DNA of 64,000 nucleotides from Gynuella sunshinyii YC6258 (GTDB lineage: Bacteria; Pseudomonadota; Gammaproteobacteria; Pseudomonadales; Natronospirillaceae), in contig NZ_CP007142.1 in NCBI RefSeq assembly GCF_000940805.1, positions 4,130,593-4,194,592 on the forward strand. Direction: 5' to 3'. Under the pieces are notes generated by a model that did no database searches, was not told the origin of the DNA, and worked only from the letters and a program-made list of their open reading frames with translations. This document shows positions 10,041 through 33,787 of this stretch, in pieces (positions within the stretch are counted from its first letter, which is position 1; each line of letters starts with the position of its first letter). Made by a program: the position numbers and the translations under genes.

Positions 10041-10423
10041 GTTGCCACCTGTCATTCTTGTAATTGTCATTTTAAATCGACTTTTTATATGACACTTTTA
10101 TGAAAACAGATGCAATCAATAGAACTTCATTTGAATTTTTTTCATTATCATGCAAAAAAATTCACTTGCCACTCTGGTATTTATTGACACCCCCTCTTAT
10201 CTCTTTTCTATCTCGGTTATTTAAAACAACAACGTCATATACGGATGAATTGGTTCTCAATGCTATACCTTTGAGTCATATCACCGAAAACTGGCACACC
10301 ACCTTTTCATGGTTAAAATACCTGTACGACCAACCTGCCCATCACTACTGACTCACCTTGAAAATATTACAGCGACTCATAACTTTGATAGAGTGACTCT
10401 CTAAATCATCAGACATCAACCTC
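10041..10423. other. Divergent intergenic region between two phosphatase genes
   Basis: AT-rich. It contains the Pho-box-like site (10089-10106) and a short palindrome AGAGTGACTCT (10390-10400) just ahead of the PPP phosphatase gene. An 83-codon plus-strand frame (10100-10351) shows no protein-like features. Confidence 0.5.
10069..10106 (-). promoter_or_regulatory. Possible Pho box and -10 for the first PAP2-type gene
   Basis: Minus strand TTTTCATAAAAGTGTCAT (10106-10089) matches the PhoB consensus (two CTGTCAT repeats 4 bp apart) at about 14 of 18 positions. A TAAAAT -10 box lies 14 bp downstream (10074-10069), so the transcript would start about 25 nt before the ATG. Found by eye; it makes biological sense for a phosphatase gene. 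Confidence 0.4.
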
Positions 10424-15231: not shown

Positions 15232-17361
15232 CTATTTTGCCGCTGTGACAGTTAATTCAACAGACTTATCATGATACGTGGCAGAAACCGTGTAGTCACC
15301 TGCATCGATAGCCTTGAACTCGCCTTCCACCTTACCCGCAGTCAATAACGTAAATTGAGTTCCAACAGCCGGCGTCAAAGTACCCATATCCAGGGTCAAT
15401 GATGTGCCATCAAGATAAACGGCTTTGTTAACAGTGATCTGACTGTCATCATCATCCATGCTAACCTTTAAGTTACCCGCGTTCATAGTCAGATAACCGG
15501 ACAGTTGCAATGTTCCGGCACTGTCAACTTCTAAAACACCACCCTTAACGTAAACATCACCGGTACCAAAGGCTGACGGGGATTCAGCTTCCAATGTACC
15601 ATTCTCAAGAACCGATCCGCCGCTGTACTGATTATTACCGGTTAAAGTCAACTGCCCGGTACCATCCTTGGTCAGCTTTCCTGCGCCCGTAATATCGTTA
15701 CGCCACCAGTCATGAGCACTGAAACCTCCATTCGCTGCATCCATTGTGACCGTTACATCACCAATGAATGCCCCATAACCATCAGCAGCGGCCAGGAGAT
15801 TGATTCTTCCCCAACCATTTGAGTTGTCCAATAACGGGTAACCAGAGTCGATTTCTGTCGTATATAGTACAGCTCTGCGTTGTTCAGAAGTCAGATATGG
15901 TTGACGGGATTTCAACAAAGCTTCAGCACCTTCCGGCACAATAGGATCCTGATTGGCAGCAGTAATATCCTGCGGCAAACCATAAGTCATACGCTCTGTA
16001 TATAAGGCCTTAATGGCGTCGTGGTCAGCATAAAAATTGTTGTTGAACACCTCAAGATTAATATTATCTCCATTCGTAAAACTGCCAACTTCATTTTCTG
16101 CCAATACCTGATGGGCATAATCATAAAGGCTCATCCCCGCATCATTCGCCTTTTGAGTAAAATACTCCTTGGCCTGATTGACAGCGGCGTCAGCATGATC
16201 CGCCCCGGTGGCTTCTGTTAGCACATATGCGGATATCGCCAGAGCCATTATACGGGCGCCAATCACATCAACAGGAGAGTGCATGCCTGCGAGGATTCGA
16301 CTTTCGCCAAGATCAGAACCACGCATTACCAGCTCAGAAAAACGTTGAGGAAACGCATAGGCCATTGCCATGGAAACCAGTATTCCAGCATTTGTGTGCC
16401 CACTGGGATAACCACCATCTTTGCGCAGGCTCTGACTATCTACCGTACCACCCAAACTGGCTCTACGCTGACAGATCAATCCTGGAACAACACTGACACT
16501 ACTGTCGTACACATCAAAATTAATTGAATTGGTGTCGCTGTTTGCATCCGTACAATCGCGAGACTCATTGCCCTGATAACTGACAATACCAGTATCATTC
16601 ATGCGCCATGGCCTTGGCGTAGAATAAATATATTTGGAACCGCTGGTAGATGATTTGCCAATATGTGAACGGAAATCCTTCACCAACTGCACAACAGCTG
16701 AGAGCGCCTCACCAGTAGAATTTCCTGCATAGTCTTCACTATCATTGCCACCGATCGCATAGTGACTGTTTTCCGTTACATCAGTCACCAAAGGGATTGG
16801 TAAATCAACGTATGCTCCACTTGCCTTAACATACTCTTCTGTCAATGGCCCCATTCCATCAATAACAGAATAGTTTTTACTACGGCGGTCATCCAGGAAG
16901 GCACGGATTGCCTCGTTCTGAGTACGATTAGTCGTCACATCAACGACATATTTAATATTTTTGACCCAGGTTTCAGAATCAACAATCGGATTTTCCAGGT
17001 AAGTGTCGGGCCCTGATCCACTAGCAGCGGCCTGATATGCGTCTGACGTTCCCTTCCAGACATCATTGATACCACGCAGCATGTAAGCATAGGGGTTGTC
17101 GTTTATACTGTATTTTAACTTTGAGTCTGCATTATTGGCAGCAAAAGTTATTGACGGCAATGGATACTGATCAGCTGGCACAACGGCCACAAACGCCTTT
17201 CCAACACCACTTGGTTCACCAGGTTTTGAATAGCCAGCGTGAGTTTCGTTATTTTCAGAATTACTATCATCAGCATTATTGCAACCACTTATCAGTATTG
17301 AAGTGGATACGATAGCAACATATAGAGCGGACAATCCAACGGATCTACGATGTATATTCAT
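15232..17361 (-). CDS. PAP2/class A acid phosphatase-like lipoprotein with autotransporter-type repeat tail (copy 2)
   Basis: 709 residues. The signal peptide ends in a canonical lipobox ISGC (Cys27), so it should be a lipoprotein. The phosphatase motif is intact: K243-x6-R250P251, PSGH at 319-322, SR at 354-355, H361 and D365. The IDSGYPLLDNSNGWGRIN linker and an autotransporter-associated repeat (TGQLTLTGNNQYSGGS) follow, then a beta-rich end with SLTLDMGTL. It aligns over its whole length with the product of 7974-10040, most strongly around PSGH and the linker, so the two are paralogues. No transporter barrel is present, so the repeat may serve as a passive surface-exposed stalk. Confidence 0.82.
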   Translation of the reverse strand: MNIHRRSVGLSALYVAIVSTSILISGCNNADDSNSENNETHAGYSKPGEPSGVGKAFVAVVPADQYPLPSITFAANNADSKLKYSINDNPYAYMLRGINDVWKGTSDAYQAAASGSGPDTYLENPIVDSETWVKNIKYVVDVTTNRTQNEAIRAFLDDRRSKNYSVIDGMGPLTEEYVKASGAYVDLPIPLVTDVTENSHYAIGGNDSEDYAGNSTGEALSAVVQLVKDFRSHIGKSSTSGSKYIYSTPRPWRMNDTGIVSYQGNESRDCTDANSDTNSINFDVYDSSVSVVPGLICQRRASLGGTVDSQSLRKDGGYPSGHTNAGILVSMAMAYAFPQRFSELVMRGSDLGESRILAGMHSPVDVIGARIMALAISAYVLTEATGADHADAAVNQAKEYFTQKANDAGMSLYDYAHQVLAENEVGSFTNGDNINLEVFNNNFYADHDAIKALYTERMTYGLPQDITAANQDPIVPEGAEALLKSRQPYLTSEQRRAVLYTTEIDSGYPLLDNSNGWGRINLLAAADGYGAFIGDVTVTMDAANGGFSAHDWWRNDITGAGKLTKDGTGQLTLTGNNQYSGGSVLENGTLEAESPSAFGTGDVYVKGGVLEVDSAGTLQLSGYLTMNAGNLKVSMDDDDSQITVNKAVYLDGTSLTLDMGTLTPAVGTQFTLLTAGKVEGEFKAIDAGDYTVSATYHDKSVELTVTAAK

Positions 17362-20789: not shown

Positions 20790-21281
20790 TTATTGTCTGA
20801 CCAGAACTCCTCTGACATTAACGATGCCGGATTTCTTGCCACTCTCCACGCTCAGTTGGTCAGCGACAATGCCTTGTTTATTCAGTTCCAGCATCATCTT
20901 GGCAAATACATCAAACTCAACATCATCGAACCAGATCCGCAAACCATTGCGACCATCATTTTCAAAGCGCTGTAACTTTAACTTCTGATCGCGGGCGACT
21001 TTATTAACCAAGGACGACAGGGCTCCACCATCATCACTCGAATTGCTTGCAGCGACACCACTCATTTGTGCAATCGTTTTTGCTTGCGGTCCAACTTTCA
21101 ACAACCAATCGTATAGTTCTGTGCGGGATTCAAGCATGGAAACCTTATCGGATTTATATCCAAGCACAGGAGTGATTATCGCAAACCAAACCAGCAGTAC
21201 TGAAAAAAGGACTGCCGTTGCTATTACAACCTGACGTTCACGCTCAGCCAGTTGCTGCCATTTGAGTTTTAAATTGTTCAT
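20790..21281 (-). CDS. gspM: Type II secretion inner-membrane protein GspM
   Basis: 163 residues, usual for GspM. A short cytoplasmic N-terminus with KWQQLAERERQVV is followed by one membrane helix (about 20-40, VIATAVLFSVLLVWFAI), a periplasmic coiled segment and a ferredoxin-like C-terminal domain. GspM pairs with GspL at the base of the secretion system. ATG 21281 overlaps the gspL stop (TGATG) and is preferred to TTG 21284. Last gene of the operon; no gspN follows. Confidence 0.9.
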   Translation of the reverse strand: MNNLKLKWQQLAERERQVVIATAVLFSVLLVWFAIITPVLGYKSDKVSMLESRTELYDWLLKVGPQAKTIAQMSGVAASNSSDDGGALSSLVNKVARDQKLKLQRFENDGRNGLRIWFDDVEFDVFAKMMLELNKQGIVADQLSVESGKKSGIVNVRGVLVRQ

Positions 21282-22513
21282 CAACTTGATACTTTCCCGG
21301 TAATTCTGAAGTTTCCACGCGTCATATTTTTATCCTGGCTGGCAGATAGCTCAACGTTATAACCTTTCCCTTCCAGCTTGGATTTTATCTGTTCCAGTTT
21401 TTGAAAATCCTGATCCAGAATAACCATCAACAGCTCTTGCTTGTCTTGAGTATATCTCAAGGAAATCAGCGTTTCCTGGCCTTTAATAGACGCGAAATCC
21501 TCCAGCAGTGATAGAAATGAAGCCGCACTTGTGGTGGTTGTGGGTTGACTGATGAGGTTCTGAACTTCCCGTTTAATCAGATTCTCCCGACACCGTTTCT
21601 GTGGCCCAAAAATATCTTTGCACAGTTTCTCGTTGGCCTGCAGATATGCTTCTGAGAGTCTCGCCGCCTGCCACCCTTGAACAACCTGGAAGCTGAGACC
21701 TGCGACCAGCAATACGGTTGCCGCAATAGCCGCGGGTTTTAACGCATTAAGCCATTGGGATTGCTCTTTCTTACCGCCAAACTCACCGATCAACAAAGAG
21801 TGGGCTGGATGGCTGCTTAGCAGCTTATCAACCAGAAACCCTAAATATGTGCCGGTATAGTATTCAGTGGTTAGCTCCTGATCCGCTGACAACATCACCT
21901 GAGCCTTAATAATATTTTCCTGCTCGCTGTTTTCAGGCAAAGTTAACTTGAGGGGTTTATCTTCATGCTGTTCCATGGCCTTAGGAAGCAACGCCCCCAG
22001 CCAACTGACATCCGCACTCAGGCAGTGACTGGGGGAAGATACAACCATGGAGCGGTCAGTCTGAATGACGTGAATAGCCCCTGCTTCAACCAGAATCTCA
22101 GCATCAATAAAACACTGTACAACTTCGAGCCCTGCCTCCTTAAGGATCTGAAGCTGAGTAGCAAACCACTCTTTATCAATGGCAATGACCGATAGACTCC
22201 CTTGTTTGGGCTTTCCTCTGGGTACCAGATGATAAAGCGACGGATCCTGGGAGAGCTTTTCCTCTACTGCAAAGTCAATTGCCTTCGCGGCATACTTCGC
22301 TTGACCCGGTGGCAGAACCATTTCCAGGAACACCGATTTTTCAATTGGAATAATCAGAGCAACCTTCGGCTCAGTGCTCCCCTCATTTTCCAGATAGGAT
22401 TTCAGGTCTTCCCAAGAACCTGATTGATCGGGCTGACGATGGCCCTGGTTAATCAATAACCAGTTTATGGTGTCTTGCTGCTCAGTCAGCTGTATCGTGA
22501 GTAAGTCTTGCAT
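21281..22513 (-). CDS. gspL: Type II secretion inner-membrane platform protein GspL
   Basis: 410 residues. The N-terminal 250 residues form the actin-like cytoplasmic domain that recruits the GspE ATPase. A single membrane helix lies at about 255-276 (PAAIAATVLLVAGLSFQVV), and the C-terminal periplasmic part pairs with GspM. Its ATG overlaps the last base of the gspK stop, and its own stop overlaps gspM, so the genes are translationally coupled. Confidence 0.92.
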   Translation of the reverse strand: MQDLLTIQLTEQQDTINWLLINQGHRQPDQSGSWEDLKSYLENEGSTEPKVALIIPIEKSVFLEMVLPPGQAKYAAKAIDFAVEEKLSQDPSLYHLVPRGKPKQGSLSVIAIDKEWFATQLQILKEAGLEVVQCFIDAEILVEAGAIHVIQTDRSMVVSSPSHCLSADVSWLGALLPKAMEQHEDKPLKLTLPENSEQENIIKAQVMLSADQELTTEYYTGTYLGFLVDKLLSSHPAHSLLIGEFGGKKEQSQWLNALKPAAIAATVLLVAGLSFQVVQGWQAARLSEAYLQANEKLCKDIFGPQKRCRENLIKREVQNLISQPTTTTSAASFLSLLEDFASIKGQETLISLRYTQDKQELLMVILDQDFQKLEQIKSKLEGKGYNVELSASQDKNMTRGNFRITGKVSS

Positions 22514-23601
22514 CAGTTTATATTTACTTGTGTTTGAGTATTAGTTTCAGAGACTGCGGTATTGTCCAAAGGAGTCACGCTCAGATTCCTTGATAGCAGT
22601 TCGACTGCATTATTCTGGTCACGATAGAGCACGCTCTGTATATAAAACGGAATATTCAAACGCCCCAATCTATCTTCAAGGTCAACTTCAGCATGTACCA
22701 AAAAATAATCCGAGTTAATGGTCAACATGTCTTCATCCAACCCTTTCAATTCATCTTCAGTAAATCCGACTGTGTTGATCATTTCATCAATGGACATAAA
22801 TGGAGCATCTTTCCGAGAGTCAACAATCTTCTGAATATTATCATTTGTCCAGGAACTGGATACAGTTTGCAGCACTTCAGCGCTCGCAGTATTGACATTC
22901 AACCGCATATCAACCGGTAACGCACACACATAATCTTTTAACTTGTCATAAAAGTCATCTGTCATGCCATCCACAAGCCGCAACTCCGAAATATCTGACA
23001 TGGGCATTACCGGCGGGAAATAAGGAGGCTCCTTTGTGGTGTACAGATATTCCGCACCACTATCCTGATGAAACCAATTGCGCACCGAGTCTGCCAGGGC
23101 AGTATTTATTCCCAATGCATCGAGCAACCTTGAAAATGAACTTTTCATCAAATCCGCATCAGGGTTTTGATCACTCAGCCAGTTTATATTGAAACGACGG
23201 TTTAAATCGGTGACCTGGACCATAGCCATGCCCTGCTCCAGTTCGGTTTCACGTCCTTGCCCCAACAAAACAGGTCCAATTAGACCTGTATCTGTATCTG
23301 TATCTGTACTACTACCATTCCAGAGCTGATTGGCCAAGTCGTCAAACTTGGTATTATCATATTTGGATCCAGGCATGGTCACAGTACCATCAAAATATAA
23401 GAGCTGAGCCCCCATCTTCTCAGCCCCCAACAGATACTCTCTGGCCTGCCCACGCATCAACACAGATACAGAACGATCCAGACTCTGTCTTTGCGCCAGC
23501 TGTATGTTGGTTGCAACCAGACTCAATAAAGTCAGGATCAATAACACCTGCACCAGCGCAACACCGCGATGATGGACGTATAACCTATTTCGCGTCGGCA
23601 T
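22513..23601 (-). CDS. gspK: Type II secretion minor pseudopilin GspK
   Basis: About 362 residues. After the prepilin-type cleavage site (HHRG|VALVQVLLILTL) position 5 is Gln rather than Glu, the exception typical of GspK, the tip pseudopilin. Large alpha-helical insertion (DLNRRFNINWL, LRLVDGMTDDFY, LNVNTASAEVL) and LNVNTA-type helix-hairpin region are as in the family. The frame opens at 23643, but ATG 23601 has AAGGA about 6 nt upstream; it overlaps the end of gspJ by 17 nt. Confidence 0.93.
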   Translation of the reverse strand: MPTRNRLYVHHRGVALVQVLLILTLLSLVATNIQLAQRQSLDRSVSVLMRGQAREYLLGAEKMGAQLLYFDGTVTMPGSKYDNTKFDDLANQLWNGSSTDTDTDTGLIGPVLLGQGRETELEQGMAMVQVTDLNRRFNINWLSDQNPDADLMKSSFSRLLDALGINTALADSVRNWFHQDSGAEYLYTTKEPPYFPPVMPMSDISELRLVDGMTDDFYDKLKDYVCALPVDMRLNVNTASAEVLQTVSSSWTNDNIQKIVDSRKDAPFMSIDEMINTVGFTEDELKGLDEDMLTINSDYFLVHAEVDLEDRLGRLNIPFYIQSVLYRDQNNAVELLSRNLSVTPLDNTAVSETNTQTQVNIN

Positions 23602-24304
23602 TGTCTGTTCCTTTTGGCCACCCTTGAGGTACCAGCCATTCACGGGTTATCTCACCATATTTCTGATGCTCAAGCGTCATCTTGATCAGAACTGGACGCT
23701 CATCACCAGTTGCACCAGCCGGTGGCCATTCTTTGGTCGTCACCAGATTACTGTCTGAATCTTTATAAACAAACTCAAAATCAAGTGATTTGACATAACC
23801 AAGAATTGCCACTTCTTTTGGATCATCATAACTGGAGTGCTCCAGATGAAAATAGTAGGCACGAATCAGACAGTATCCTTCCAGATTCTTTTGATCCAGA
23901 CGTTGATTAGGAATAATCGCCCGACTGCAACGTTCGTCACTCATAGCCGCGAGTTCATAACTGACTCTCTGCAATTGGCTTCGTGGATTGTCCTTAAGCT
24001 GTAAGAGAGATTGCGACCAACCTTTGCGGGTGAACGTCAAAAAAGTTTCAAAGTTAGCGATAATGGAATTTTGAGTTTGACCGTAGTCATCTTTTACCGG
24101 ACGCTCAGGGTCCAGTTCAAGAATATCCGTTTCTATGCGACTTTCAGCTCTTTGCAACTGATCCAGATGAAAATTTGCCTCTTCCAGGCGCCTGCGTCCA
24201 TCAGTCACGCTGCTCACCAGTGATAATGTGTAAAGTGCCAACACCGCAGAAACCGTAATCGCAATAAGTAATTCAACCAGGGTAAGGCCTGTCTGCTGCT
24301 TCAT
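23585..24304 (-). CDS. gspJ: Type II secretion minor pseudopilin GspJ
   Basis: 239 residues with the prepilin signature QQTG|LTLVELLIAITV including Glu5. The C-terminal beta-rich domain has the GspJ features LQRVSYELA and WPPAGATGDERPVLIKMTLE. Together with GspI and GspK it forms the tip complex that starts pseudopilus assembly. The ATG overlaps the gspI stop (ATGA). Confidence 0.92.
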   Translation of the reverse strand: MKQQTGLTLVELLIAITVSAVLALYTLSLVSSVTDGRRRLEEANFHLDQLQRAESRIETDILELDPERPVKDDYGQTQNSIIANFETFLTFTRKGWSQSLLQLKDNPRSQLQRVSYELAAMSDERCSRAIIPNQRLDQKNLEGYCLIRAYYFHLEHSSYDDPKEVAILGYVKSLDFEFVYKDSDSNLVTTKEWPPAGATGDERPVLIKMTLEHQKYGEITREWLVPQGWPKGTDNADAK

Positions 24305-24687
24305 ACTTTACCCACGTACGTCACCAGCAGATCTATTCGCTGATCAGGGGACTGCTTTAAATAAACCTCAACTTCAACCTGCCGAATGTAGTCAACCTTG
24401 TCTTCCATCGTCGGTACCGGTAACGCTTTCACTTTGAGTGTCCACTCCCGCCCGACATACTTGACCGTCTTTTTAGTTTCATCCAATGCGGGAAAGGTAT
24501 TAGCCAAACGTATCTCGGCAATTTCATTTTTAGCCACCCAACGCGCAAACATACGTTCTTCAAGGCGTCGGGCACTTTCGGCGGCCGAACTACTCGCCAA
24601 TGACAAGCTGATTGCTCCCAGAGCAAAAATAGCCAGTGCCACCATCACCTCAATCAAGGTAAAACCGTTACTACGGGTTCTGCGCAT
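24301..24687 (-). CDS. gspI: Type II secretion minor pseudopilin GspI
   Basis: About 128 residues. Prepilin cleavage site RSNG|FTLIEVMVALAIFALG with Glu5, followed by the usual LEERMFARWVAKNEIAEIRL stretch. The frame is open to 24726, but ATG 24687 gives the short basic leader expected for prepilin peptidase substrates. It overlaps the end of gspH by 17 nt. Confidence 0.92.
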   Translation of the reverse strand: MRRTRSNGFTLIEVMVALAIFALGAISLSLASSSAAESARRLEERMFARWVAKNEIAEIRLANTFPALDETKKTVKYVGREWTLKVKALPVPTMEDKVDYIRQVEVEVYLKQSPDQRIDLLVTYVGKV

Positions 24688-25261
24688 AGGCCTCCAGCTC
24701 CAATGGGTTGTAACCATCAGAATCAAGCAACCACACCGGATTTTCCTGATACTTGATCACAATACTGAATGGGGGATCAGACTCGCCATCGCTGCGAATA
24801 ACCACCAGGGGGGTAATTGGATTGATATACTGATCCGGCTGATCATCCTCGTCAGAAAAATCAGGAAGGTCATCAAGTAGAGGCAACTCCTGATCATCAA
24901 CCCAAAATTCATAGGCAACATCTTCAGGAATATCATGTACTTCAAACAATTGACTCTCTACTGCGCTGGCATCTGGAGACCAGTTAACATACCGCTCACC
25001 AGAAGTTCTCTCCGTCAACATCTCTCCAGCCAACCATAAATACTGGTCTCCGCTCATTACCAGACCAATATCCTGACCAGTCAAAATCGCCAACTGCTGG
25101 GCGTTATCAAATTGCGTCTGCATACTCAACGCCAGCTTTTTATTCTGCTTAACCGGATCATAAACTGATACGGACGTGGCAATCGCTCCAACAACAACCC
25201 CGAGGATCACCAACATCACCATCAGTTCTATCAGGGTGAAGCCAGTCTCCGCCCGTTTCAT
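24671..25261 (-). CDS. gspH: Type II secretion minor pseudopilin GspH
   Basis: 196 residues beginning MKRAETG|FTLIELMVMLVILGVV, a canonical prepilin leader with Glu5. The rest is a beta-rich GspH domain, unusually acidic in the middle (LLDDLPDFSDEDDQ). It starts 2 nt after the gspG stop. Confidence 0.9.
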   Translation of the reverse strand: MKRAETGFTLIELMVMLVILGVVVGAIATSVSVYDPVKQNKKLALSMQTQFDNAQQLAILTGQDIGLVMSGDQYLWLAGEMLTERTSGERYVNWSPDASAVESQLFEVHDIPEDVAYEFWVDDQELPLLDDLPDFSDEDDQPDQYINPITPLVVIRSDGESDPPFSIVIKYQENPVWLLDSDGYNPLELEAYAQNP

Positions 25262-25263
25262 AA

Positions 25264-25683
25264 TTAATTTATACTGCTAATATCCGCATCGGCTTCTTCA
25301 CCGCCTTCGCGACCATCTTTACCATATGAAACGATCTCAATAGATCCACTGCCATTGTTTATGTATACGTATGGATTACCCCAGGGATCTTTTGGTGCTG
25401 TTTTGATATAAGGGCCACGCCAGTTCTTGGCTTCAGGACTGCCACTAGGCTTGTTCAACAAGGCATCCAAACCCTGATCAGTTGACGGATAAACAAAATT
25501 ATCCAGGCGATACATATCGAGTGCAGTTTCTATTGTCTTTAAATCCGTCCTAGCCAGTTTCTGGTTGGCCTCATCCTGACGACCAAAATACATCGGTGCA
25601 ACCAATCCTGTAATCGCTGCCATAATCAATACAGCAATCATCAATTCCAGTAACGAAAAGCCAGTCTGTTTATTGTTCATCAT
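25264..25683 (-). CDS. gspG: Type II secretion major pseudopilin GspG
   Basis: 139 residues. Leader MMNNKQTG|FSLLELMIAVLIMAAITG with Glu5; then the invariant core PSTDQGLDALLNKPSG, WRGPYIKTAPKDPWGNPY and the C-terminal calcium-binding loop SYGKDGREGGEEADADI. It polymerises into the pseudopilus that pushes folded substrates through the GspD channel. Either of the first two Met codons could start it. Confidence 0.96.
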   Translation of the reverse strand: MMNNKQTGFSLLELMIAVLIMAAITGLVAPMYFGRQDEANQKLARTDLKTIETALDMYRLDNFVYPSTDQGLDALLNKPSGSPEAKNWRGPYIKTAPKDPWGNPYVYINNGSGSIEIVSYGKDGREGGEEADADISSIN

Positions 25684-25703
25684 TTCCTTACTCTATTACT
25701 TAT

Positions 25704-26912
25704 TTAAATATTTGAATTTAGCTGAGCGATTGGCAGAACCACGGCCATAACGATCAACATCACGATCATACCCATTACCACCAGCATTAACGGCTCCAAA
25801 AGAGTCAACATTGTGGAAATTAATTCTTTCAGAGTTCGCTCCTGGGTATTTGCTGTTCGCTCCAGCATTCGCTCAAGATCACCACTGGCCTCGCCACTGG
25901 CAATCATGTGAATCATCATCGGAGGAAAGTAGCCTGTCGCAGCCAGAGATTTGTTCAAAGACTCCCCTTCACTAACCTTCTGGGTAGCAACGGTCACTTT
26001 TTCCTGAATCTCAAGATTGCCGATAACCTGCGAAGCGATTCGCATGGCATCAACGAGCGGTACCCCACTGCTTCCCAATGTCGCTAGTGTGCTCGCGAAT
26101 CTGGCAGTGCTAAAACCTTTAATCATTTTACCAATTAAGGGCAGTTTTAACTTGAACCGGTCCTTAATTTTCTTCCTTCCAGGTGTACGCCCCCACCAGA
26201 TATTAAAAAATATCAGCAAAATCACCAATACAACCATCCCCAACCAATAGGCTCGGACAAAGTCACTCACGGATAATAATATCTGGGTTGGTTTGGGGAG
26301 TTCCTGATTACTCGATATAAATACGTCAAGAATCTTGGGGACAACGGTATTGAGCAGGTAAACCACAATGGAGAAAGCAATCACCACCAGGATCGTAGGG
26401 TACACGGCCGCCATCTGAATGCTTTTCTTGGTGGCATCCTGGCCTTCAACGTAATCGGCCAGTTTATCCATGACGGCTTCGAGATGGCCAGATTGTTCAC
26501 CAGCGTCGACTGTTGCACGATAAAGATGTGGAAAAGCACGCGGATATTCTCCAAAAGCCTGGGCCAAGGTGTGCCCTTCGAGTACTTTCCCACGAACGGC
26601 CATCATCATGGATCGAATTTTGGCTGACTCGCTTTGCTCCGCAACTGCTTTCAGACATTCTTCCAACGGCATACCGGAACCAACCAAGGTTGCCAGCTGC
26701 CGGGTCAGCAAAGCAAGATCCGCACTGGATACTGACGGGCCTTTGCGACCTAAAGAGGCATTTCCACCTTTCTCCTTGACCAGCTCTACCTCTGCCGGAA
26801 ACCATCCTTTGTCTCTGAGCATTTGCCGGATCTGACGCGGACTGTCGCCTTCAAGAACCCCTTTACGACGCTTACCTTTTTCATCAATGGCAATATAATC
26901 AAAAGCGGCCAC
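25704..26912 (-). CDS. gspF: Type II secretion inner-membrane platform protein GspF
   Basis: 402 residues with two T2SSF repeats (cytoplasmic halves at about 70-195 and 270-395), each followed by membrane helices (VYPTILVVIAFSIVVYLL, LEPLMLVVMGMIVMLIVMAVVLPI). N-terminal FDYIAIDEKGKRRKG is typical. Start is GTG at 26912, overlapping the gspE stop by one base (TAGTG) with AAGGAG just upstream. Confidence 0.95.
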   Translation of the reverse strand: MAAFDYIAIDEKGKRRKGVLEGDSPRQIRQMLRDKGWFPAEVELVKEKGGNASLGRKGPSVSSADLALLTRQLATLVGSGMPLEECLKAVAEQSESAKIRSMMMAVRGKVLEGHTLAQAFGEYPRAFPHLYRATVDAGEQSGHLEAVMDKLADYVEGQDATKKSIQMAAVYPTILVVIAFSIVVYLLNTVVPKILDVFISSNQELPKPTQILLSVSDFVRAYWLGMVVLVILLIFFNIWWGRTPGRKKIKDRFKLKLPLIGKMIKGFSTARFASTLATLGSSGVPLVDAMRIASQVIGNLEIQEKVTVATQKVSEGESLNKSLAATGYFPPMMIHMIASGEASGDLERMLERTANTQERTLKELISTMLTLLEPLMLVVMGMIVMLIVMAVVLPIAQLNSNI

Positions 26913-28447
26913 TAGAGCTCCTTACGACAAACACGTAATACTTCTTCAACAGTCGTCAATCCCTGAAGCACCTTTGCGATACCATCATGATATATGCTTG
27001 GATCCGACTTACGAGCTTCAGCCTCCAGTTCCTGCTCACCGGCTCGGGTGTGAATCAAACGCTGTAACGTGGGCGTTACATTCACAATTTCATATAAACC
27101 AAGTCGACCTTTATAACCGGTATTGCGACACTGGCCACACCCTTTGGCGTAATAAATAGTCGGTGGATTAGCCGGATCAGCCCCCAAAAAACCACATTCA
27201 GCTTTATCGGCTTTCACTTCTTGTTTGCAATCCGGACAAAGAGTCCTTACCAGACGCTGCGCACAGGCACCGATTAATGATGAGGACAGCAAAAACGGCT
27301 CAACCCCCATATCCTGCAAGCGGGTAACAGATCCAATGGCACTGTTTGTATGCAATGTCGATAGCACCAAGTGCCCCGTCAGAGAAGCTTCCACAGCAAT
27401 CTGGGCAGTTTCAAGGTCACGAATCTCGCCGATCATCACAACGTCTGGGTCCTGACGCAGAATCGCCCGTAAACCACGTGCAAAAGTCATATTCACTTTG
27501 GTGTTGACCTGTGTCTGACCAATACCGGGAAGACTGTATTCAATCGGATCCTCAACGGTCATGATGTTTCGGACCTGATTATTCAGCTCTTCCAAAGATG
27601 CATAGAGCGTTGTGGTTTTACCAGAGCCGGTAGGCCCGGTAACCAGAATGATCCCATGCGGTCTGGTAATCAGCTTCTTGATATCATCATAGGCTCGCTT
27701 GTTCATTCCCAGGTGGCTTAAATCCAACTTGCCAGCTTGCTTATCCAGCAAACGCAATACCACCCGCTCCCCATAGTTTGAGGGTATGGTTGACACCCGT
27801 ATATCCACCTCTCGGCCCGCCACACGCAGGGCAATCCGTCCATCCTGAGGTACTCTCTTCTCAGCAATATCCATCTTCGACATAACTTTGATGCGGGAAA
27901 TCAATAAAGGTGCCAACGCCCTTTTTGGTTGAACCACTTCACGCAGAACACCGTCAACCCGGAATCGGACAAGCAACTTACGCTCAAAGGTTTCAATGTG
28001 AATATCAGAGGCACCTTCTTTAACAGCCTCTGAAAGCAACGCATTAATCAAACGAATAATTGGCGCATCGTCTTCTTGCTCCAGCAGGTCTTCAGTTTCA
28101 GGTACCGCATCGGCCAAACTCCGGAGATCCATTTCATCCCCGAGGTCTTCGACCATTTGCATGGTTTCACCCGAGTCACTCTGATATATCCTGTTGAGGG
28201 CAAGGTTAAAATCTTCTTCTGTCACCTGTTCCGGGACCAGATTCACACCTGCAAAACGCCGGGCCTCCTGAAGAGACTCTAATGCCACATCGACCCGATA
28301 GAGCAATTTGGGACGATCATCTTCTTTAAAGTCGATAACCACTCCCTTGCGCTTGGCAAAACTGAATGGCAACCGGGCTCTTGATTCTACGTGTACACTC
28401 TCAGTCACTAACTTATCCATCTTCGTGTGGTGGTGTTGTTCCGTCAT
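26912..28447 (-). CDS. gspE: Type II secretion ATPase GspE
   Basis: 511 residues. Cytosolic hexameric motor: N-terminal domain that binds GspL, then the ATPase core with Walker A GPTGSGKT at 271-278, Asp box DPIEYSL, Walker B VMIGEIRD, and His box GHLVLSTLHTN. The tetracysteine zinc module (CPDC ... CGQC) marks it as GspE rather than a PilB-type ATPase lacking it. It starts 7 nt after the pseudo-kinase gene, so the two are almost certainly co-transcribed. Confidence 0.96.
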   Translation of the reverse strand: MTEQHHHTKMDKLVTESVHVESRARLPFSFAKRKGVVIDFKEDDRPKLLYRVDVALESLQEARRFAGVNLVPEQVTEEDFNLALNRIYQSDSGETMQMVEDLGDEMDLRSLADAVPETEDLLEQEDDAPIIRLINALLSEAVKEGASDIHIETFERKLLVRFRVDGVLREVVQPKRALAPLLISRIKVMSKMDIAEKRVPQDGRIALRVAGREVDIRVSTIPSNYGERVVLRLLDKQAGKLDLSHLGMNKRAYDDIKKLITRPHGIILVTGPTGSGKTTTLYASLEELNNQVRNIMTVEDPIEYSLPGIGQTQVNTKVNMTFARGLRAILRQDPDVVMIGEIRDLETAQIAVEASLTGHLVLSTLHTNSAIGSVTRLQDMGVEPFLLSSSLIGACAQRLVRTLCPDCKQEVKADKAECGFLGADPANPPTIYYAKGCGQCRNTGYKGRLGLYEIVNVTPTLQRLIHTRAGEQELEAEARKSDPSIYHDGIAKVLQGLTTVEEVLRVCRKEL

Positions 28448-28454
28448 TGCTTAA

Positions 28455-30611
28455 TCAACCTATCCAGCGTTTGAGTGCGCTGGCCAGTTCCTCAAGTGTT
28501 ATGGGTTTGGAGATAAAGTCATCCATACCTGCTGTCAGACATTCCCGTTTTTCTTCTTCGCTGTTTCGAACGGTCAACGCCAGTATCGGCACCCTGGACT
28601 GGTTGTTTTCCATCGTCCGTACCATTCTAGCGGCTCCATAGCCATCTAACACGGGCATTAAGCAATCCATGAGGACTAGGTCATATTTTTGTTTTTGGGT
28701 TTCGTTTACGACCTCTCGACCATTCTCCACAGATACAACCTGGTATCCCAGCTTTTTCAGCATTGATTCCGTTACGGTTCTACTGACCAAATCATCCTCG
28801 GCCAACAGAATAAGCTTATGAGCGTTATCCTCTATATCACCCTCTACAATGCCTTCCTGCTTTTCCTCATTCAACTGTAAAAAAGCATCATGTAGAGAGT
28901 AACGGCCTGCCGGCTTGGTTAAATACGGCACCCGGCCCAATCTGTCAATCAACGCATTTTTACTTTTGACGGCTCCATATAAAATGAGCAAAGTATTTTC
29001 GCTTTTATGTTGATAAAGTTGCTCAAGAAATGCCAACAACGTCTCATCGTGCTCATTGAGCGGTAGATTTAGCAGAATGAAATCAGGATTTTCCGACAGT
29101 CGTTCTGACAGTGCGTCGAAAGTCGGCAATTGTTCCACCTGCATTCCCCAGGCGCTGGTTTCCCCTGCCAAACCTTTGGCCGCTCTCGGTGGCATGGCAA
29201 CCAGCCAAAGGGTTTTCTGCTCCAGCTCTTTACTGGACTGAAATTGTGCAATCTGCTGACTCGACGCTTCCAAAGGCACATACGACACTACCGAATAGAC
29301 CGCATTTTCTATTTCGTTGCATGCCAGATCGCCACCCATAATCTGCGCCAGACGTGTGGAAATCATCAATGACAAGGCCGTGCTATCAATATTTTCGCTG
29401 CCTTCCAGCAATAAACCAGTACTGGAGCGACGAAGCTCTTCGATATCCAGCTCTATCGACTCAAAATACACCGAAAACTTAAGTACTGAGCCGAGTTTTT
29501 TGGAATCTTCCATAGACACCTTGAACACGACTTCATTGTCGCTGGCAAAGTTCAGCGCCAACTGGATCTGGCTCTGAATAACCTGCCCCACGTGCTTCTT
29601 ATCCAGGTTAACCCGCGAAGGAACATTGATGTCATAGAGATAACTCAGTTCCAATCCGAGCTCATGGGCCTGATGTCCTAATGACTCAGCCAGATTCTCG
29701 GTAAACTTACGCAAGTCGAAATACTGAAAATCCAGTTGAAAATTACCGCTCTGTATCTTTGAGTAGTCTTCCAGGTCCGTCATCAGCGCCACCAACGCAT
29801 CCCCAGACTGAGTAGCTAATTCCAGCGCCTGACGCTGATCATTATCCAGACGTGACTGCTTAACCAGCGACAACATACCCAGCACCCCTTGTAATGGTGT
29901 CTTGATGAGACCCATCAGGGTGTGCAGTACGTTCTCGTTAACATCAGCCCTCTGTACCTGTTCAATACGCGATGCATTCAACAAAGCAACCTGTTGCTGT
30001 AACTGTTGGGAAAACTCAACCCGGTCCCAAAAACTGGTGTATAGCTTCTGGGCCTGACGCAGTAAAAATATCAGATAAACCAACATTCCCACGGCAAGGA
30101 TGGAATCAAGGATATTGGCACGAAAGAATAGAAACACCGCCGGAGGAATCAGGACCAGACATACGAAAGCCCGCACATAACGGATATAACAGGAATACAA
30201 AGTAATCGTGCCTGCGGTAATCGCCGAGCTATACAACAACATCAGGGTCTCTGATTGGAAGAATTGGGCATTGGACAGGATAAAGATCTGAATCCCTCCC
30301 CAAATCACTGCATTCAGCAAAGACAGCGCCATAAAATGTGTACGCCAGCGATGTGGTCCTTTGGCATAGATACCATCAAACCTGAGACCATAGAAAATCC
30401 GAAGAATGGCAATAACCAGAATCGTCATCCCAATGACATAACTGATCATTCGTGTTTCCAGCTTAAAGCCCATGGCAAAGTCAACCAGCAAAAACACGAC
30501 AAAATAGCTCAGCATACTGGGCAGACTTTTGACCGCCAGCTCCTTATCGATTTTTTTCAGAATCTTCCGGTCTTTTTGAACTTTTGATACCGGATTGAAC
30601 AGAAGCCCCAT
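28455..30611 (-). CDS. Degenerate hybrid sensor kinase with intact receiver domain, first gene of the secretion operon
   Basis: 718 residues. Six or so membrane helices lie in residues 30-185, followed by a coiled coil (about 195-225). A DHp-like helix at 226-246 reads TLMGLIKTPLQGVLGML, where the usual SHEIRTPL has Gly234 in place of the phospho-accepting His. The ATPase domain (about 335-450) lacks recognisable N, G1 and G2 boxes. A receiver-like segment without the acidic pocket follows at about 465-580. The C-terminal receiver (598-718) is complete: D606-D607, D649, T680, K702. The protein therefore cannot autophosphorylate on His but could accept phosphate from another kinase. Position directly upstream of gspE suggests a role in controlling secretion; this is inference. 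Confidence 0.85.
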   Translation of the reverse strand: MGLLFNPVSKVQKDRKILKKIDKELAVKSLPSMLSYFVVFLLVDFAMGFKLETRMISYVIGMTILVIAILRIFYGLRFDGIYAKGPHRWRTHFMALSLLNAVIWGGIQIFILSNAQFFQSETLMLLYSSAITAGTITLYSCYIRYVRAFVCLVLIPPAVFLFFRANILDSILAVGMLVYLIFLLRQAQKLYTSFWDRVEFSQQLQQQVALLNASRIEQVQRADVNENVLHTLMGLIKTPLQGVLGMLSLVKQSRLDNDQRQALELATQSGDALVALMTDLEDYSKIQSGNFQLDFQYFDLRKFTENLAESLGHQAHELGLELSYLYDINVPSRVNLDKKHVGQVIQSQIQLALNFASDNEVVFKVSMEDSKKLGSVLKFSVYFESIELDIEELRRSSTGLLLEGSENIDSTALSLMISTRLAQIMGGDLACNEIENAVYSVVSYVPLEASSQQIAQFQSSKELEQKTLWLVAMPPRAAKGLAGETSAWGMQVEQLPTFDALSERLSENPDFILLNLPLNEHDETLLAFLEQLYQHKSENTLLILYGAVKSKNALIDRLGRVPYLTKPAGRYSLHDAFLQLNEEKQEGIVEGDIEDNAHKLILLAEDDLVSRTVTESMLKKLGYQVVSVENGREVVNETQKQKYDLVLMDCLMPVLDGYGAARMVRTMENNQSRVPILALTVRNSEEEKRECLTAGMDDFISKPITLEELASALKRWIG

Positions 30612-30690
30612 GAATACTCCAATTTAATGCAACCATCATATTTACTATTTAGTATCCGCCGCGGTCTAACGTGGAGGCATAGCTTTATCT

Positions 30691-32034
30691 ATGAAAAAGG
30701 CACAAATCACCTTTCTTTTATTATTTCTTTGTACACCTGTACTGTGTTTAGCAACGACTTTGGAGGCAATCGGAAAAATCCCAGACAACACCCCTTTATT
30801 TACGATTCATGGCTCTAATACCATAGGCGCACATCTCGGCCCCAATCTTATTAAAGCTTACCTGATCACCAAGGGGGTGAAAGATACAGAAATTAACGCT
30901 TCGGGTGTAGAGAACGAACAGATAGTTAGTGGTTTTTTTAATAACAGGCGGGTCAGCGTCTATGTCGCGGCCCATGGATCCAGCACCGGATTCAAGGGGC
31001 TACAGTCGAAGAAAGCTGATCTGGCGGCGGCATCGCGCCCGGTTAAAAACAAGGAAAGCAGTTTATTCCCTGAGATCAATATGGTCGACGGTATGCATGA
31101 GTTTGTTTTGGGGATTGATGGCCTTGCCATTATCGTACACCGCAACAACCCCATAGAGCGTTTAAATATTGACCAATTGGGACAGATATTTTCAGGGCAG
31201 ATCAGCAACTGGTCCGAAATTGGCGGACCAGACCGCCCTATTCATGTATATGCCCGGGACGACAAGTCAGGTACTTATGATACGTTTGACAGTCAGGTAC
31301 TGGGTCGCGGCTATAAGCTATCAGACAAAGCCGAACGATTCGAATCCAACGAGAAACTTTCTGATCAGGTAGCACGGGATCTGGGAGGAATAGGCTTTAC
31401 GGCCCTGGCGACCATTAACAACGCCAAGGCCATCAAAGTAAATGATATGGGAGCCAACGCTTTTTATCCGGATACCACAACTATTGCCACTGAGGACTAT
31501 CCTCTCGCCAGAAGGCTTTATTTTTATAAAGCTGACAGCAACAATCCGTTTGTGAATGACTTTCTAAACTTCGCTACCGGCCCCGAAGGTCAGAACATCG
31601 TTGAGCAAACCGGATTTGTTTCACAAAATATTCTGAGTTATCAAAATCATCCAACCCCGGATATGCCTGTTGGTTATCGGGTTCTCGCTCAAAGCTCAAA
31701 ACGTCTGTCAGTGAACTTTCGCTTTCGGGCCGATGCCATGGACCTGGACAACAAAGCCAGGGCCGATGTCAAACGTTTGAAACTGTTTTTGGAACAACCG
31801 GAAAATGCCAACAAGCAAATTATTTTGTTCGGCTTTTCAAGTGAAACCAGCCACCAGATACGTGCCAGTTTGACGTCAGAGTTACGTGTCAACAAGGTGA
31901 AAGAGGCTCTGCTCACAGCAGGCATCCGCAACTCCATTGAACTGGGTGGTTATGGTGATATAAACCCTGTCGCAACCAATGCAAATACGGCATACGCGAA
32001 CAAAAACAACCGTGTGGAGGTATGGGTTAAATAG
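30691..32034 (+). CDS. PstS-like substrate-binding domain fused to an OmpA peptidoglycan-binding domain
   Basis: 447 residues with a signal peptide (MKKAQITFLLLFLCTPVLCLA). Residues about 35-310 are a phosphate-binding-protein-like fold (IHGSNTIGAHLGPNLI, LAAASRPVKNKE, ARDDKSGTYDTF, LGGIGFTALATI). Residues about 330-447 are OmpA-like (LSVNFRFRADAMDLDNKA, LELGGYGDINPVA, NKNNRVEVWVK), which should bind peptidoglycan. A periplasmic ligand-binder anchored to the wall is implied, without a transporter nearby. It is divergent from the pseudo-kinase gene; ligand unknown. Confidence 0.85.
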   Translation: MKKAQITFLLLFLCTPVLCLATTLEAIGKIPDNTPLFTIHGSNTIGAHLGPNLIKAYLITKGVKDTEINASGVENEQIVSGFFNNRRVSVYVAAHGSSTGFKGLQSKKADLAAASRPVKNKESSLFPEINMVDGMHEFVLGIDGLAIIVHRNNPIERLNIDQLGQIFSGQISNWSEIGGPDRPIHVYARDDKSGTYDTFDSQVLGRGYKLSDKAERFESNEKLSDQVARDLGGIGFTALATINNAKAIKVNDMGANAFYPDTTTIATEDYPLARRLYFYKADSNNPFVNDFLNFATGPEGQNIVEQTGFVSQNILSYQNHPTPDMPVGYRVLAQSSKRLSVNFRFRADAMDLDNKARADVKRLKLFLEQPENANKQIILFGFSSETSHQIRASLTSELRVNKVKEALLTAGIRNSIELGGYGDINPVATNANTAYANKNNRVEVWVK

Positions 32035-32108: not shown

Positions 32109-33038
32109 CTAAAGTGCTTTTTCCAGCTCGGGTACCGCTTCAAACAAATCTGCGACCAAGCCATAGTCAGCCACTTGAAAGATTGGGGCTTCCTCATCTT
32201 TATTAATAGCCACAATAACCTTTGAGGCTTTCATACCCGCCAAATGTTGAATGGCACCGGAAATACCTACCGCAATGTACAAATCCGGAGCAACGATTTT
32301 CCCCGTTTGACCAACCTGCATATCGTTCGGTACGAACCCAGCATCTACTGCCGCTCTCGACGCCCCCACCGCGGCTCCAAGCTTGTCAGCGATTCTCTCT
32401 AACATGGCAAAGTTTTCACCGCTTTGCATACCACGCCCACCCGATATTACAACTTTCGCAGCGGTTAACTCTGGGCGGTCACTCTTGGCCACTTCTTCCG
32501 ATACATATTCAGAAACACCCTTGTCGCACTGACCAGAAACACTCTCAATCTGGGCAGAACCTCCTTCGGCAGCTACTGGATCAAAAGCCGTACCCCTGAC
32601 AGTCAGCACTTTGACGGCATCCGTAGACTGAATTGTGGCGATACCATTCCCTGCGTATATAGGCCGTTTAAACGTATCCGGACCCTCCACCGCAATCACT
32701 TCAGATATTTGCTCAACATCTAACAGTGCCGCAACACGTGGCAGGTAGTTTTTACCGTTAGTGGTGGCCGGAGCAATGATATGGCTGTATTTGTCTGCGA
32801 TAGACAAGATCAACTCAGCTACATTTTCTGCCAACAGATGAGCCAACTCAGGCTGATCGGCCAACAATACTTTAGTCACGCCGGAAATTTTTGCAGCTTC
32901 TTCTGCAACTGAGGAGCAATCTGAACCAGCAACCAGCACATCAATATCACCACCGATCTGAGCAGCGGCAGCAATCACATTTAAGGTTACAGGTGCTAAC
33001 GCCTGACCGGCATATTCTGCTATCACTAAAATACTCAT
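32109..33038 (-). CDS. etfA: Electron transfer flavoprotein, alpha subunit
   Basis: 309 residues. FAD-carrying subunit that takes electrons from acyl-CoA dehydrogenases and passes them to ETF-ubiquinone oxidoreductase. The C-terminal FAD-binding signature is clear: [63 protein letters not shown] and [20 protein letters not shown]. Its ATG overlaps the etfB stop by 4 bases (ATGA). Confidence 0.96.
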
Positions 33039-33787
33039 GAGATCACCTTCGCTTCGTTTTTCAGCTTTTCGACCAAATCCGCCACACTGGCGACTTTTAT
33101 ACCGGCAGACCGTTCCGCTGGTGCTTCAACTTTCAACGTAGTCAATGATGTGCAGGCAACCACCCCCAGCTCCTGAAGCGTGATTTTTTCCAATGGTTTC
33201 TTTTTGGCTTTCATGATATCCGGCAGCTTGGCGTATCTTGGCTCGTTAAGACGCAGATCGGTGGTAATTACTGCGGGCAACTGCAATTTGATTGTTTGCA
33301 GACCGCCATCGATCTCTCGGGTAACCTGTACTTGATTGCCATCAACCTCGACCTTGGAGGCAAAGGTGCCTTGCGCACACCCCATAAGTGCCGCCAGCAT
33401 CTGACCGGTTTGATTGTTGTCCGAGTCAATGGCCTGTTTGCCCAGAATAACCATGTCCGGCTGTTCTTTCTCAGCAATAACTTTCAACGTTTTCGCCGCG
33501 GTCAGAGAGGAAACAGGCCCTTCTGCCTGCACCAGGATCCCCCTGTCAGCGCCGAGGGCGATGGCCGCCCGAATTTGTTCTTCTGCCTTTGCTTCGCCGA
33601 TTGACACCACCACAATCTCAGCCACCACCCCTTTTTCTTTCAACCGCACCGCCTCTTCCACTGCGATTTCACAAAATGGGTTCATGGACATTTTGACATT
33701 GGATAAATCAATACCGCTATTATCGGGTTTCACACGGACCTTTACGTTATAGTCCACCACCCTTTTCACTGCGACCAGTACTTTCAT
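33035..33787 (-). CDS. etfB: Electron transfer flavoprotein, beta subunit
   Basis: 250 residues, AMP-binding subunit. Family hallmarks are [40 protein letters not shown], the recognition-loop segment [19 protein letters not shown], and [14 protein letters not shown]. It leads the etfBA operon, divergent from ETF-QO across a 222-bp region with a PsrA-like site. Confidence 0.96.

Follow-up and report, generated by a model that had tools for sequence, protein, structure and literature searches.

The window analysed here, a stretch of 64,000 nucleotides from Gynuella sunshinyii YC6258, raises the question of what a homologue of membrane hybrid histidine kinases, apparently deprived of its catalytic residues, does directly upstream of gspE, the assembly ATPase gene of a type II secretion system (T2SS). 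To our knowledge, only a small number of bacterial histidine pseudokinases are understood, and the regulation of T2SS output after assembly is largely open. Among the literature matches listed outside subscription papers, no title or opening of an abstract mentions a T2SS operon containing a pseudokinase or hybrid kinase. Comparison with its relatives indicates that the protein is probably not an enzyme but a relay or scaffold. The features of the locus are listed in Table 1.

Table 1. Features of the pseudokinase locus and the adjacent genes (window coordinates)
Feature	Coordinates	Strand	Basis or remark
Pseudo hybrid histidine kinase gene (718 aa)	28455..30611	-	Pfam and orthologues
Tail at the N terminus (residues 1-30), of the KxQKDRxxLxxID type and taken to be cytoplasmic	30522..30611	-	sequence conservation
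Hydrophobic helical membrane region, residues 31-190	30042..30521	-	sequence; helices in structural model
DHp (HisKA) domain, residues 226-296	29724..29936	-	Pfam HisKA 236-289; structural model and Foldseek
Codon of Gly234, position of the phospho-accepting His	29910..29912	-	sequence, alignment
Degenerate ATP-binding (CA) domain, residues 297-450, without N, G1 and G2 boxes	29262..29723	-	Pfam, alignment
Middle pseudo-receiver, residues 455-590, Asn515 at acceptor site, KPxxR near end	28842..29249	-	Pfam in relatives, model
Last receiver (REC2), residues 599-716, pocket intact	28464..28817	-	Pfam, alignment, structure matches
Codon of Asp649, REC2 phospho-acceptor	28665..28667	-	sequence, alignment to PA1611REC
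gspE, T2SS assembly ATPase	26912..28447	-	TIGR02533 above its cut-off
gspF-gspM	20790..26912	-	downstream of gspE, in order
gspF	25704..26912	-	NCBIfam
gspG	25264..25683	-	profile match
gspH	24671..25261	-	named only by methylation motif and place
gspI	24301..24726	-	profile match
gspJ	23585..24304	-	profile match
gspK	22513..23643	-	NCBIfam
gspL	21281..22513	-	NCBIfam
gspM	20790..21284	-	profile match
etfA (32109-33038) and etfB (33035-33787)	32109..33787	-	upstream of the pseudokinase gene, seemingly its earlier neighbours

Five Pfam families were matched in the window protein at E ≤ 1, including HisKA, from profile position 13 on, and Response_reg (residues 601-713). HATPase_c was absent from these matches, as were HAMP, Hpt and 7TMR-DISMED2, and none of the five is a T2SS family. 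Receiver_CRE1 was matched in the middle receiver of some relatives and had no match in the window protein. The structural model, built on five sequences, has a mean pLDDT of 63, and mostly below 50 in residues 31-190; its CA domain fold still matches the kinase regions of GacS and RetS in Foldseek. A promoter and terminator scan of positions 28200-30900 yielded no more than shuffled sequence gives.

The sequence-only reading, which described a glycine in place of the phospho-accepting histidine and the loss of the N and G boxes, was borne out on both points: residue 234 is the glycine in LHTLM-G-LIKTPLQGVLGM, and none of the 21 orthologues from its own bacterial family (coded f1), the window protein included, has an N, G1 or G2 box. 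The glutamate that follows the histidine site is also replaced (L235), which removes the HExxT phosphatase motif as well. As aligned, the window protein lacks the residues for standard histidine kinase and HExxT phosphatase chemistry. Motifs were counted in an alignment of 74 distinct rows (21 from f1, 17 from family f15 and 36 from other families). Histidine occurs in seven f1 rows, and the glutamate and the N, G1 and G2 boxes in none. Among the f15 rows, histidine is present in three, the N box in 10, G1 in nine and G2 in 12, and in the other families the histidine (34/36), glutamate (36), N box (35), G1 (30) and G2 (35) are nearly always present. HATPase_c is accordingly distributed in Pfam: 2/21 rows of f1 (best E 3.4e-4), 15/17 of f15 and 31 of the 32 rows scanned out of 36 from other families (L096, L098, L100 and L101 were omitted). 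The relatives in more distant families are mostly intact kinases, and f15 is, by its motifs, intermediate between them and f1.

Since ATP-site boxes and glutamate are missing from 21/21 f1 orthologues alike, their loss is due neither to chance nor to sequencing error. The glycine itself is not kept in orthologues beside gspE. Eleven residue types occupy the site among the 21 rows (H in seven, otherwise G, Q, E, R, S, A, T, L, M or N), which rules out Gly234 as a special conserved replacement. An orthologue combining His234 with intact ATP-binding boxes was not found in f1: seven have the histidine, but none has the boxes. The histidine is present in 6/6 rows of genus g4 and in one of g2; therefore the site is not free everywhere and may have a use in g4. 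Loss of the ATP site presumably dates to the root of f1 or earlier, with the histidine site varying afterwards. By free parsimony, presence or absence of histidine changed seven times overall and twice within f1, while seven losses within f1 are required, by hand count on the tree, if a lost histidine was never regained. This tree, on which f1, f15, f21, f28 and f43 each form one clade, is rooted at its midpoint, carries long-branch warnings and omits L096 (partial), L110 and L071.

Of the 22 f1 genomes, 21 contain an orthologue, each as a single match at E ≤ 1e-55. The exception is G008, a 90% complete genome, where no match was found at this threshold and gspE is preceded by other genes; a copy elsewhere in that genome is possible. 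Whole-gene dN/dS was 0.03, 0.03, 0.03, 0.14 and 0.08 in five pairs, the sixth being saturated; these values are rough, as dS exceeds 1 in four of the five pairs. In the DHp domain, three pairs show both synonymous and nonsynonymous changes, with dN/dS of 0.01, 0.04 and 0.03; the CA domain gave 0.02, 0.02 and 0.12, with 0.55 in one pair having three changes. The gene is evidently under purifying selection by these ratios, and their low values indicate that the dead DHp/CA core is itself under selection. Among the sequences compared, degeneracy is the normal state of this pseudokinase family, which is kept by gspE.

Within f1, pairs at 22-45% overall identity retain mean identities of 0.36 in REC2 (from 72 of 113 pairs), 0.28 in both the DHp domain and the membrane region and 0.26 in the CA domain, so that REC2 is the best-kept folded domain among the pairs that have it. 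The intact relatives show 0.52 in DHp, 0.40 in CA and 0.58 in REC2, at a mean overall pair identity of 0.32 versus 0.26 in f1. In f15, REC2 (0.28) is less well kept than the membrane region (0.41). The N-terminal tail has the highest conservation among distant f1 proteins (0.42) despite preceding the membrane region, and is a possible contact site.

The middle receiver-like segment is degenerate, as had been proposed, with asparagine at the acceptor position. This residue is Asn in all 21 f1 rows, while 34 intact relatives have Asp in 18 cases and Asn in 15. For the last receiver, the residues previously listed (D606, D607, D649, T680 and K702) are all present as letters, but the acidic pair is E605/D606, which aligns with E521/D522 of PA1611REC. 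In the D607 column, 18 further f1 rows carry a letter: Asn in 17 (including a stray letter in L118, which is without the last receiver) and Lys in one. The REC2 pocket of the window protein is therefore intact, comprising the acidic pair, D649, T680 and K702. Among f1 rows with a letter at these positions, Asp649 is found in 18/18, Thr or Ser at 680 in 18/18 and Lys702 in 17/18. Five of 18 rows nevertheless have an altered pocket, at 606 in L017, L116, L119 and L019 and at 702 in L016. REC2 is present in 19 of the 21 orthologues; L117 and L118 lack it, yet end about 3-30 nt before gspE. Because two orthologues lack REC2 and five have an altered pocket, phospho-input cannot be the sole conserved job of this protein.

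The distance from the pseudokinase stop codon to the gspE ATG is 7 nt, exactly as first read. The gsp operon in the window shows neither gspC nor gspD among its ORFs; the only gspC match of the genome (G000:C1:4822759-4823181) lies about 660 kb from gspE-M. The pseudokinase gene immediately precedes gspE in 20 of the 21 f1 carriers, comprising 19 loci in which gspE follows on the same strand and G002, where the gene (L003) is cut by its contig end and its REC2 part lies beside gspE on a separate contig (L123). In the remaining carrier, G009, contigs end between the two genes. In other genera the intergenic gap varies: it measures 69 nt in g6, about 3-42 nt in g5, g7 and g8 according to which start codon is taken, and about 65-313 nt in those g2 and g4 loci for which a start could be placed. 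A second arrangement is found in genus g24 of f15, where the relative is located downstream of gsp genes in 9/9 matched genomes, with GspM confirmed by Pfam in L061. No gsp genes were seen in the stretches read, some of them short contigs, for the other eight f15 relatives and the 36 relatives of other families. On the tree, T2SS adjacency changes twice when all f1 rows are scored as adjacent. A strict tie of this adjacency to the loss of the histidine does not hold up, as five of the eight f15 relatives without nearby gsp genes also lack His. PF03934 (GspK) was rejected as a lone marker of T2SS position, being too unspecific: its matches extended to ORFs of about 100-160 and 780-1200 aa.

Another receiver protein was observed next to a T2SS in family f43. 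In G197, a REC-PAS-PilZ protein (L129:293-1426) is encoded directly upstream of gspE, its end meeting the gspE start. Homologues are present in 17/17 f43 genomes searched, 5-7 kb from a gspK (PF03934) match on the same contig, and each of the 17 has a second receiver homologue about 1 kb farther upstream. Elsewhere in the window of G. sunshinyii, two PAP2-type phosphatase proteins (7974-10070 and 15232-17361, minus strand), with no autotransporter barrel match at E ≤ 0.001, carry a PATR repeat near the C terminus.

The core of the pseudokinase is closest to BarA in NCBIfam (2e-56; 191.6 of 890 bits, far below the cut-off). The domain order of BarA is DHp, CA, pseudo-receiver and receiver, and the window protein shares it, but differs from GacS/BarA in the absence of HAMP or Hpt matches in Pfam and of the catalytic motifs. 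With the structural model as query, Foldseek placed ShkA at the top, followed by GacS (7z8n) and RetS (6dk7, 6dk8 and 7n0e), with DivL (4q20) at rank 49. The best sequence match of REC2 among solved structures is PA1611REC (E 4e-33, 49% identity, Z 21.5, in a small library), while GacS D1 leads by fold with Z 23.0; the VIA-align rows mainly cover residues 595-718, and other parts are barely tested by them. The receiver of one intact relative also best matches PA1611REC. The genome itself encodes a BarA-like kinase (872 of 890 bits), 14 Hpt matches and a gene cluster for Hpt, REC-SpoIIE-HATPase and STAS proteins, which we take to be of the hptB-hsbR-hsbA kind. RetS carries a periplasmic 7TMR-DISMED2 sensor domain, a family without a Pfam match in the pseudokinase at E ≤ 1. 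DivL differs in having tyrosine at the histidine site, PAS domains and no receiver.

RetS of P. aeruginosa is described as having a HATPase domain without G boxes and no autophosphorylation, its REC2 Asp being phosphorylated by GacS, and as retaining an H-box with HExxT that is used as a transmitter phosphatase (PMC5992135). The pseudokinase resembles it as a hybrid kinase with a G-box-less HATPase region and two receivers, the second of which carries the phosphorylated Asp in RetS, and the kinase region of RetS is among the best fold matches of the model; unlike RetS, which keeps HExxT (PMC5992135), it has lost both His and Glu. PA1611, the partner of HptB, exchanges phosphate with HptB through its cytosolic part using ATP (PMC7467158), and is therefore an active kinase, in contrast to the pseudokinase, which has no catalytic motifs. 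The N-terminal parts are of like length, since the cytosolic part of PA1611 starts at residue 202, and of ten contact positions taken from the PA1611 docking model (PMC7467158), six are identical and four differ in REC2, as read by eye. DivL of Caulobacter is reported to be devoid of kinase and phosphatase activities while binding DivK~P (PMC4211667); it shares with the pseudokinase a kinase core lacking these activities, a lack that in the latter is predicted from sequence. ShkA of Caulobacter (6qrj), the top Foldseek match, likewise combines a kinase core, a central pseudo-receiver and a receiver, but is catalytically active, with c-di-GMP acting as a stimulus at the pseudo-receiver (PMC7010744).

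The explanation best fitting these observations, although held tentatively and with somewhat less than even confidence, is that of a RetS-like pseudo hybrid kinase working without catalysis. The membrane domain would sense a signal, the dead DHp/CA part would bind another sensor kinase or regulator, and REC2 could take phosphoryl groups from, or return them to, an HptB-type Hpt protein or a BarA/GacS-type kinase. The pseudokinase may thereby damp or gate that phosphorelay, and through co-expression with gspE-M this switch would be coupled to production of the secretion machine. Since HExxT is lost, of the three mechanisms of RetS only phosphate take-up by REC2 and a binding block of autophosphorylation would remain. 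Several observations weigh against the RetS-like reading: the two orthologues of 21 without REC2 and the five of 18 with an altered pocket, the histidine kept in all six g4 rows, the poorer conservation of REC2 relative to the membrane region in f15, the presence of His and HExxT in RetS itself, and gspE without a pseudokinase match in G008. The sequence-only reading went further and proposed a membrane-bound phospho-input protein that tunes secretion or GspE. What stands of it is a membrane pseudokinase kept beside gspE, with a plausible phospho-accepting REC2 (Asp649 in 18/18) that is better conserved than DHp/CA in pairs having it. The missing or altered REC2 in some orthologues counts against phospho-input as the sole conserved function. 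The link to secretion or GspE comes from the neighbourhood only; a direct role in secretion is possible. Of its neighbours, etfA seems to have been beside the gene for longer.

The etfB and etfA genes are located upstream of the pseudokinase gene in the window and in 8/8 f1 loci read with long flanks (eight of the 20 other carriers). In five f15 genomes, etfB and etfA precede the relative as well, together with etfQO in four of them, and no gsp gene is present in the stretch. Because the etf genes flank the gene in both families, the etfA-pseudokinase linkage looks older than the pseudokinase-gspE linkage, and this, with the loss of REC2 in two orthologues, calls for caution over the operon. 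In the window, a gene on the plus strand (30691-32034), divergent from the pseudokinase gene, encodes a PstS-like periplasmic binding domain fused to an OmpA domain; such a fusion gene also lies between etfA and the pseudokinase gene in L113, L115 and L117, and is missing from that position in other f1 loci read with long flanks.

The alternatives are not mutually exclusive, and neither are their probabilities. The older etf linkage is consistent with a bystander whose function is unrelated to secretion, gspE-M having landed downstream of it once in an ancestor and stayed through a shared promoter. This history, for which the tree needs just the two changes of adjacency noted above, is rather unlikely, given the order kept in 20/21 f1 carriers and the second T2SS adjacency in g24. 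The same conserved order, maintained down to about 24-30% protein identity, and the different neighbourhood in g24 could instead reflect direct action, with the REC2-gated cytoplasmic part binding GspE or the GspL/GspF platform and controlling assembly; the receiver protein beside gspE in G197, with homologues near gspK throughout the f43 genomes searched, points the same way. Direct action is nevertheless unlikely, as co-location is not contact, gaps of about 65-313 nt in g2, g4 and g6 leave room for a separate promoter, and gsp genes are absent from the stretches read, some of them short contigs, around eight other f15 and 36 further relatives.

Slightly less probable again is the capture of a kinase of the HptB/GacS network by the T2SS locus, where it would have lost catalysis and would now regulate the GspE motor as a phosphate-gated membrane protein. 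If true, this may have happened twice, at opposite ends of the operon, and the protein would be the T2SS counterpart of the PilZ proteins acting on the type IV pilus motor PilB.

A reversed flow of information of the DivL type, in which the dead DHp/CA part would bind a phosphorylated response regulator and report it with no need for REC2, is doubtful. The constraint on the dead DHp within genera (dN/dS), the persistence of orthologues without REC2, the appearance of DivL among the Foldseek matches and the binding of DivK~P by DivL, described as inactive as a kinase and phosphatase (PMC4211667), all favour it, but REC2 is kept in 19/21 orthologues and is the best-conserved folded domain among the f1 members having it. 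A decaying gene or a sequence error, to which the variability of residue 234 might point, is ruled out for practical purposes by the open frames without internal stops, the purifying selection and the same ATP-box loss in 21 genomes.

The gene offers a graded natural series, from intact kinases through His-less forms with an ATP site to forms that have lost all motifs and finally the receiver. Located beside a secretion motor, this series allows a non-catalytic job of the kinase core to be separated from catalysis.

Beyond these families, a scan of the named-genome collection with the single protein returned two distant relatives and a scan of viral contigs six, while a plasmid search gave seven records, none covering 80%. 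At E ≤ 1e-5, a profile of the N-terminal 200 residues matched 97 of 390 genomes of the order. Its weaker matches include many ORFs of about 360-660 aa, and one of these that was read is a GGDEF protein. At E ≤ 1e-15, the membrane-domain profile matched two of 368 other genomes of the class, the ORFs being 455 and 477 aa long. In the genome of the window itself, a distant membrane-domain match (L133:779-1972; G000:C1:927335; E 1.8e-10) is fused to a GGDEF domain, and the membrane domain may therefore be a shared sensor module.
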